Source of the DNA: Defluviitaleaceae bacterium
GTDB taxonomy: Bacteria; Bacillota; Clostridia; Lachnospirales; WRAX01
Reading direction: 5' to 3'
Assembly: GCA_009779935.1 (NCBI GenBank)
Contig: WRAX01000026.1
Coordinates: 1-33,328 of the forward strand
DNA: 33,328 nt
Part shown: positions 2,647 to 32,480 of the stretch, in pieces
How positions within the stretch are numbered: position 1 is the first letter of the stretch
How the letters are laid out: every line of letters starts with the position of its first letter
The notes under the pieces: generated by a model
What the model saw: only the letters and a program-made list of their open reading frames with translations
Databases searched by the model: none
What the model was told of the DNA's origin: nothing
Translations under genes and position numbers: made by a program

Positions 2647-2663
2647 AGTTTTATATACATATC

Positions 2664-2691
2664 TATTCGCAAAAGTTACATTTTGCGAATA
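2664..2691. repeat. Palindrome TATTCGCAAAA...TTTTGCGAATA
   Basis: Perfect 11-bp arms at 2664-2674 and 2681-2691 flank a 6-nt centre. The same TATTCGCAAA word occurs three times in the DnaA-box array at 32351-32461. Here it lies downstream of gap. It may be a protein binding site or an RNA hairpin. Confidence 0.5.
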
Positions 2692-2694
2692 TAT

Positions 2695-32324: not shown

Positions 32325-32461
32325 TGTGGAAAAGAGGCGGTTATCCACATCAACTATTCGCAAAACAAAATTAAGGCTTGTGGATAACTCGTGGATATTC
32401 AACTATTCGCAAAAACCAAGTGAGACTGTGGACAACTAAGGATTATTCAACTATTCGCAAA
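32325..32461. repeat. DnaA-box cluster built into about 48-bp repeats
   Basis: Two perfect DnaA boxes: TTATCCACA (32341-32349) and its complement TGTGGATAA (32379-32387). Two boxes have one mismatch: TGTGGAAAA (32325-32333) and TGTGGACAA (32427-32435). The word CAACTATTCGCAAA occurs three times (from 32351, 32400 and 32448), each after a box at a similar offset, with a period of 48-49 bases. Between tRNA-Ser and the acetyltransferase gene there is no other coding potential. It resembles an iteron or a DnaA-titration cluster. No dnaA, dnaN, rep or parA gene is in the window. Confidence 0.75.
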
Positions 32462-32480
32462 TTATCACCCCTATTCTAAG

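Follow-up and report, generated by a model that had tools for sequence, protein, structure and literature searches.

DnaA boxes interleaved with solitary arms of a dif-like palindrome in the putative terminus region of a Defluviitaleaceae bacterium

Near one end of contig WRAX01000026.1 of a Defluviitaleaceae bacterium (assembly GCA_009779935.1; the window, i.e. the whole stretch of 33,328 nucleotides that was analysed) we found an array in which DnaA boxes alternate with copies of a single arm of a dif-like palindrome. Judged from the sequence, this array is very probably a composite of DnaA boxes and Xer arms that is linked to dif and belongs to the terminus region. The evidence comprises: the identity of the arms, their geometry, the nearness of the array to dif in related genomes and the one-way orientation of the arms. 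As an overall explanation we tentatively prefer a dif-linked composite that is a predicted accessory element for DnaA and the recombinase; that the control of dif/Xer would be the main job of the array is conceivable, and held with a little more reserve.

The preliminary description of this locus had reported two perfect and two one-mismatch DnaA boxes within about 110 bp, as well as a word repeated three times with a period of 48-49 bp, and both observations held. The boxes (TTATCCACA when perfect) span 111 bp, and the word CAACTATTCGCAAA starts at 32351, 32400 and 32448, i.e. at intervals of 49 and 48 bp; the 14-mer AACTATTCGCAAAA, with one mismatch in its last copy, proved the better repeat unit (Table 1). 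The array is situated between the 3' end of an AAC(3)-like ORF and a tRNA-Ser. The proposed genome-wide count of the word returned three copies in 2.136 Mb, all of them in the array, and a generic dispersed repeat was rejected on that count. An RNA hairpin was set aside as well, the arms within the array being direct repeats. Read backwards, the word resembles a Spo0A box minus one base; a Spo0A-type box was dropped after the palindrome and its linkage to a recombinase had emerged.

Table 1. Coordinates of the array elements and of the dif-like palindrome in the window
Feature	Coordinates	Strand	Remark
DnaA box, one mismatch (TTTTCCACA)	32325..32333	-	
DnaA box, perfect	32341..32349	+	2 bp ahead of first arm; box-N2/3-arm kept in 7/7 array genomes
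Solitary arm of dif-like palindrome, AACTATTCGCAAAA	32352..32365	+	
DnaA box, perfect	32379..32387	-	13 bp past arm 1, 13 bp ahead of arm 2
Solitary arm, AACTATTCGCAAAA	32401..32414	+	
DnaA box, one mismatch (TTGTCCACA)	32427..32435	-	12 bp past arm 2, 13 bp ahead of arm 3
Solitary arm with one mismatch, AACTATTCGCAAAT	32449..32462	+	
Dif-like palindrome, ATCTATTCGCAAAA-GTTACA-TTTTGCGAATATAT	2661..2694	strandless	between tRNA-SeC and GAPDH-like ORF (ORF named by eye)

That such a density is not expected by chance, as had been argued, was borne out by 500 dinucleotide shuffles of the window: the maximum number of boxes (≤ 1 mismatch) per 110 bp was one in 349 shuffles, two in 150 and three in a single one, and four boxes were reached in none of the 500. 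TTATCCACA is abundant throughout the genome (85 perfect copies, versus 9 for the pattern read backwards), so the boxes alone are less striking than the boxes together with the word. Other close box pairs are found at C7:49928/49953, at C11:47811/47848 and in oriC (C11:12830-12892), and the word is present at none of these. The C7 pair (G000:C7:49928-49961) consists of two perfect boxes in facing orientation at a distance of 25 bp, and it has no arms. The gene dnaA (C11:13006-14319), with three perfect boxes just upstream (12830, 12875 and 12884), is encoded on a contig other than that of the window. The array is hence what it had been called, a cluster of several close DnaA boxes away from dnaA, and its density exceeds chance. 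The suggestion that it forms part of an origin finds no support: dnaA and its three boxes are on C11, and the window's contig holds the dif-like palindrome and a skew maximum, with a switch from + to - as at a terminus, where oriC would adjoin dnaA at a skew minimum.

The repeat had thus been correctly seen, but not recognised as the arm of the dif-like palindrome that starts at 2661 in the same window. The array word equals, letter for letter, the palindrome arm of other families and differs at 1 of 14 positions from the arm of the genome's own dif. The sequence AACTATTCGYAAAA occurs in 76 of 196 related genomes, in many of them as an inverted pair 20 bp apart. Searching genome contigs for the pattern AACTATTCGYAAAA-N6-TTTTRCGAATAGTT recovered at least 117 stretches, 80 of which were listed as loci; the hosts among the matches listed include Christensenella, Butyrivibrio, Lachnospiraceae and other Clostridia. 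In a slightly relaxed form (≤ 3 mismatches) the 34-bp palindrome was present in 125 of the 196 related genomes and single-copy in 119 of these, while the reversed pattern was present in 0 of 196. With ≤ 3 mismatches allowed, the genome contains no palindrome of this kind other than the copy in the window, whose inverted arms flank a centre within the 6-8 bp of a dif site. Among the family genomes, none was found in G005, G006, G010, G014 and G015. Many of the copies among the 80 loci listed lie between convergent genes, without a recombinase. A few genomes have multiple copies (11 words in G138, 5 palindromes in G033, 3 palindromes in G136), perhaps reflecting mobile elements that exploit the site. 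The tRNA-SeC that adjoins the dif-like site was located at 2490-2584 by ARAGORN, and in 20 of the 80 loci listed a LexA-like gene (named by eye) is found within 4 kb of the palindrome.

Clustering of the ORFs flanking the 80 loci listed yielded a tyrosine recombinase as the leading family, whose gene lies no more than 4 kb away in 38 of the 80, with the palindrome on the upstream side of the gene in 38 out of 38 (in two it overlaps the mechanically annotated ORF start). The family, including the genome's own recombinase, keeps the residues R-K-H-R-H-Y and matches Phage_integrase. Its best NCBIfam model is XerS, and with 183-203 bits against a cut-off of 267 for the XerS equivalog NF003462 (5/5 proteins under) it is to be regarded as related to XerS and not as a member. 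A match at 1e-40 was found in 175 of the 196 related genomes, nearly always one per genome. The own recombinase (G000:C22:18244-19308) is the only match in its genome at 1e-3, and its contig is not that of the window. Near this gene C22 shows a second GC-skew maximum (~17.8 kb), which is hard to reconcile with a single terminus, except as a local skew. Arms (≤ 2 mismatches) were also found around the recombinase gene start in 14 of the 38 listed loci, 13 of them in gene orientation, as expected if one arm alone can be bound; these single arms probably serve autoregulation.

On the window's contig the GC skew switches from + to - at 2.6 kb, the cumulative maximum being at 2560, 100 bp from the palindrome. 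In G119, a single contig, the palindrome is found at 1,587,351 of 3,120,417 bp, with dnaA at 122, and the skew is +0.09 in the 10-kb bin before it and -0.17 in the one after; the recombinase gene is located away from it, at 454,067. The distance from palindrome to dnaA amounts to ~52% of the circle in G040 and ~50% in G051 (genome sizes rounded). Two other genomes fit less well: the word and the recombinase are at about 38% of the circle in G036, and the recombinase is at about 24% in G058. Within the family, the skew maximum is 30 bp from dif in G001 and 0.5 kb in G011, in G008 and G012 the switch is weaker or displaced by 3-4 kb, and none is seen at dif in G002. Because the palindrome is single-copy, linked to a recombinase and positioned roughly opposite dnaA in three single-contig genomes, it behaves like dif; overall it fits a dif site, with recombination by the linked recombinase as a prediction.

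On the question whether the cluster is conserved in relatives, it was found to recur in some of them: the array was recovered from 7 of the 16 family genomes, which represent four genera (the own genome, G001, G002, G008, G011, G012 and G014). The composite TTATCCACA-NN-arm (≤ 1 mismatch) occurs in 6 of 16 family genomes and in none of the order's 376 other genomes; G012 falls outside this pattern by a 3-bp gap between box and arm. With 2 mismatches one outside genome (G243) and one match in a coding region (G015) were added. Eight outside genomes match when 3 mismatches are allowed; these are attributable to chance, as the reversed control gives no fewer matches. The spacing within the array is likewise kept: box-N2/N3-arm in all seven array genomes, box-N13-arm in five (own twice, G001, G002, G008, G012) and arm-N12/N13-reversed box in four (own, G001, G002, G012; the gap is 16 in G008). 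No array was seen in nine of the 16 family genomes, there being none around dif in G003, G004, G007, G009 and G013 (where dif is about 200 bp from the contig end) and no further ones around the words on the contigs of G013, G004 and G014. In a recombinase tree of 14 rows, which includes six of the seven array genomes, the array-less G004 and G013 group with array genomes (100/100 for the group of eight) and 3 label changes are needed. A single origin of the array is neither demonstrated nor excluded. In the 80 listed loci of other families, 18 solitary extra arms (≤ 1 mismatch) were counted in 605 kb, none of them with a DnaA box (≤ 1 mismatch) within 70 bp, and perfect boxes were not enriched near dif in these families (1 in 145.6 kb within 1 kb, versus 2 in 459 kb elsewhere).

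Array and dif share a contig in 6 of the 7 array genomes, a linkage to the core site like that of Xer accessory sequences; the seventh array is on a contig of 3.25 kb. Their distance is 0.3-4.3 kb in five contigs and 29.6 kb in the window. On the six contigs that contain both, all 26 solitary arms (≤ 1 mismatch) are oriented away from dif, whichever side of it they lie on, in units that are not independent, as arms share arrays and species share a genus. Among more divergent copies the ratio of away to toward was 2:4 at exactly 2 mismatches, 33:19 at exactly 3 and 220:190 at exactly 4, so that base-composition skew accounts for just a mild bias. In G004, which is without a box cluster, three of four arms point away from dif and one toward it, for a total of 29/30.

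Linkage to dif and polarity together favour a role in dif or terminus biology over one for the neighbouring genes, which differ within one genus. The earlier proposal that the array regulates the acetyltransferase or tRNA-Ser fails as a general function, as it precedes a response-regulator gene in two species of one genus (G001, G002) and a ThrE-like operon in four genomes (G008, G011, G012, G014; genes named by eye). A site tied to tRNA-Ser was rejected, the tRNA-like matches of G002 being on C22 and its array on C9. More generally, DnaA and an arm-binding protein might regulate whichever gene follows, for which the recurrence of these two gene contexts and the single arms at recombinase starts could be cited. 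This operator model is nonetheless improbable, and the array is probably not a local promoter: the following genes vary within a genus, no gene start is met in the window in the direction of the arms before the contig ends 866 bp downstream, and dif linkage and polarity are left unexplained.

For a dif-linked accessory element, we propose that DnaA would occupy the boxes and that the arm would be the target of the one XerS-like tyrosine recombinase that the genome encodes. With the boxes most probably marking the former and the arms the latter, both would be brought into one nucleoprotein complex, and the fixed spacing across four genera most probably marks such a joint complex. DnaA occupancy could then affect the recombinase, through its local concentration or its access to dif, and the element would link the replication cycle to the resolution of dimers or the handling of the terminus. 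Our best guess is that DnaA and recombinase, bound together, tune dif recombination or the DnaA supply; a DnaA that steers the recombinase and a recombinase that aids a DnaA reservoir would look the same in sequence. Two more specific variants we consider unlikely: in one, dif recombination would be under direct gating by DnaA; in the other, the two proteins together would block forks or DNA translocases near dif from one direction only. The start of the chromosome cycle would in that case be coupled to its end via a single piece of DNA. The location of the own recombinase gene on another contig and the 29.6 kb between the own array and its dif speak against the accessory element, as do the nine family genomes in which no array was seen (G004 and G013 among them, despite their grouping with array genomes), the displaced or missing skew switch in G008, G012 and G002, the ThrE-like operon that follows the array in four genomes, the non-independence of the arms in the polarity count and the one arm of G004 that points toward dif.

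Titration of DnaA by the array is possible. A main role as a DnaA reservoir or inactivation site, in which the recombinase would merely shape the complex like IHF at datA, is about as unlikely as the gate or barrier. Four boxes in 111 bp, two of them perfect, would suit a reservoir, as would the fixed spacing relative to a second protein site, which recalls datA/DARS2 in the accessible accounts of these loci, and the accessible text of PMC5295017 reports that B. subtilis is sensitive to the removal of six extra-origin clusters. The B. subtilis clusters are, however, oriC-proximal in the available part of PMC13220808, whereas the array is at the terminus, and simple titration needs neither dif arms nor polarity nor nearness to dif. 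A reservoir at the terminus would double late in the cycle.

The array could also be a relic, namely the iteron/DnaA-box origin of a plasmid- or phage-like element that had inserted itself at dif. Its layout does resemble that of plasmid origins, elements integrate at dif according to the accessible text of PMC5357621, and the palindrome was encountered in 13 stretches of a viral collection, which would be either bacterial flanks or elements that use this dif. We regard a relic as very improbable, given that the array is kept in four genera with fixed spacing, viral contigs contain no exact copy of the composite, the array has no BLAST match in plasmids and no replication gene was noted by eye among the neighbouring ORFs.

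The roles of DnaA and of Xer-type recombinases are usually placed at the two extremes of the chromosome cycle. If the accessory-element reading is true, the array would be their physical meeting point, and it hints at a link between the beginning and the completion of replication; the idea is testable now that the palindrome, the recombinase and the array have been identified. XerS/difSL, XerH/difH, XerL and the six DnaA-box clusters of B. subtilis are covered by PMC5357621, PMC3025954, PMC5295017, PMC9765430 and PMC13220808, and the accessible text of these five sources holds no DnaA-Xer composite. A description of the palindrome/recombinase pair or of the array was not found in the open literature that was searched, which is weak evidence as most subscription journals and all of bioRxiv fall outside that set; the pair appears to be widespread in Clostridia and apparently undescribed there.

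The plasmid Xer sites cer and psi have accessory sequences with ArgR, PepA or ArcA sites near the core, and the array resembles them in placing extra DNA, predicted to bind proteins, near an Xer core site. It differs in being chromosomal, in its distance (0.3 to 30 kb) and in having DnaA boxes and recombinase half-sites in place of the ArgR/PepA/ArcA sites. In E. coli, datA and DARS2 combine DnaA boxes with the site of a second DNA-binding protein (IHF/Fis) at set distances. As far as the available accounts of these loci go, the array is similar in joining boxes to a putative second-protein site at set distances; its second site is the arm of a chromosomal dif-like palindrome, not an IHF/Fis site, and its location is the terminus. 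With XerS/difSL of streptococci and lactococci the system shares one Xer-type recombinase that is often encoded beside its site. In the accessible text of PMC5357621, the arms of difSL are unequal and its centre measures 11 bp, in contrast to the symmetric 14-bp arms and 6-bp centre of the palindrome, and difSL is described without solitary arms or DnaA boxes. XerL/dif of the Legionellales, in the part of PMC9765430 that is accessible, is alike in its single recombinase, its uninterrupted symmetric arms and a gene that can be far from the site, and differs in recombinase and lineage, with 0 occurrences of 'DnaA' in that paper. The DnaA-box clusters of B. subtilis are likewise groups of close boxes outside oriC in a Firmicute; in the available descriptions they are oriC-proximal, whereas the boxes of the array lie near the terminus and alternate with dif arms at constant distances, the array being polar relative to dif.
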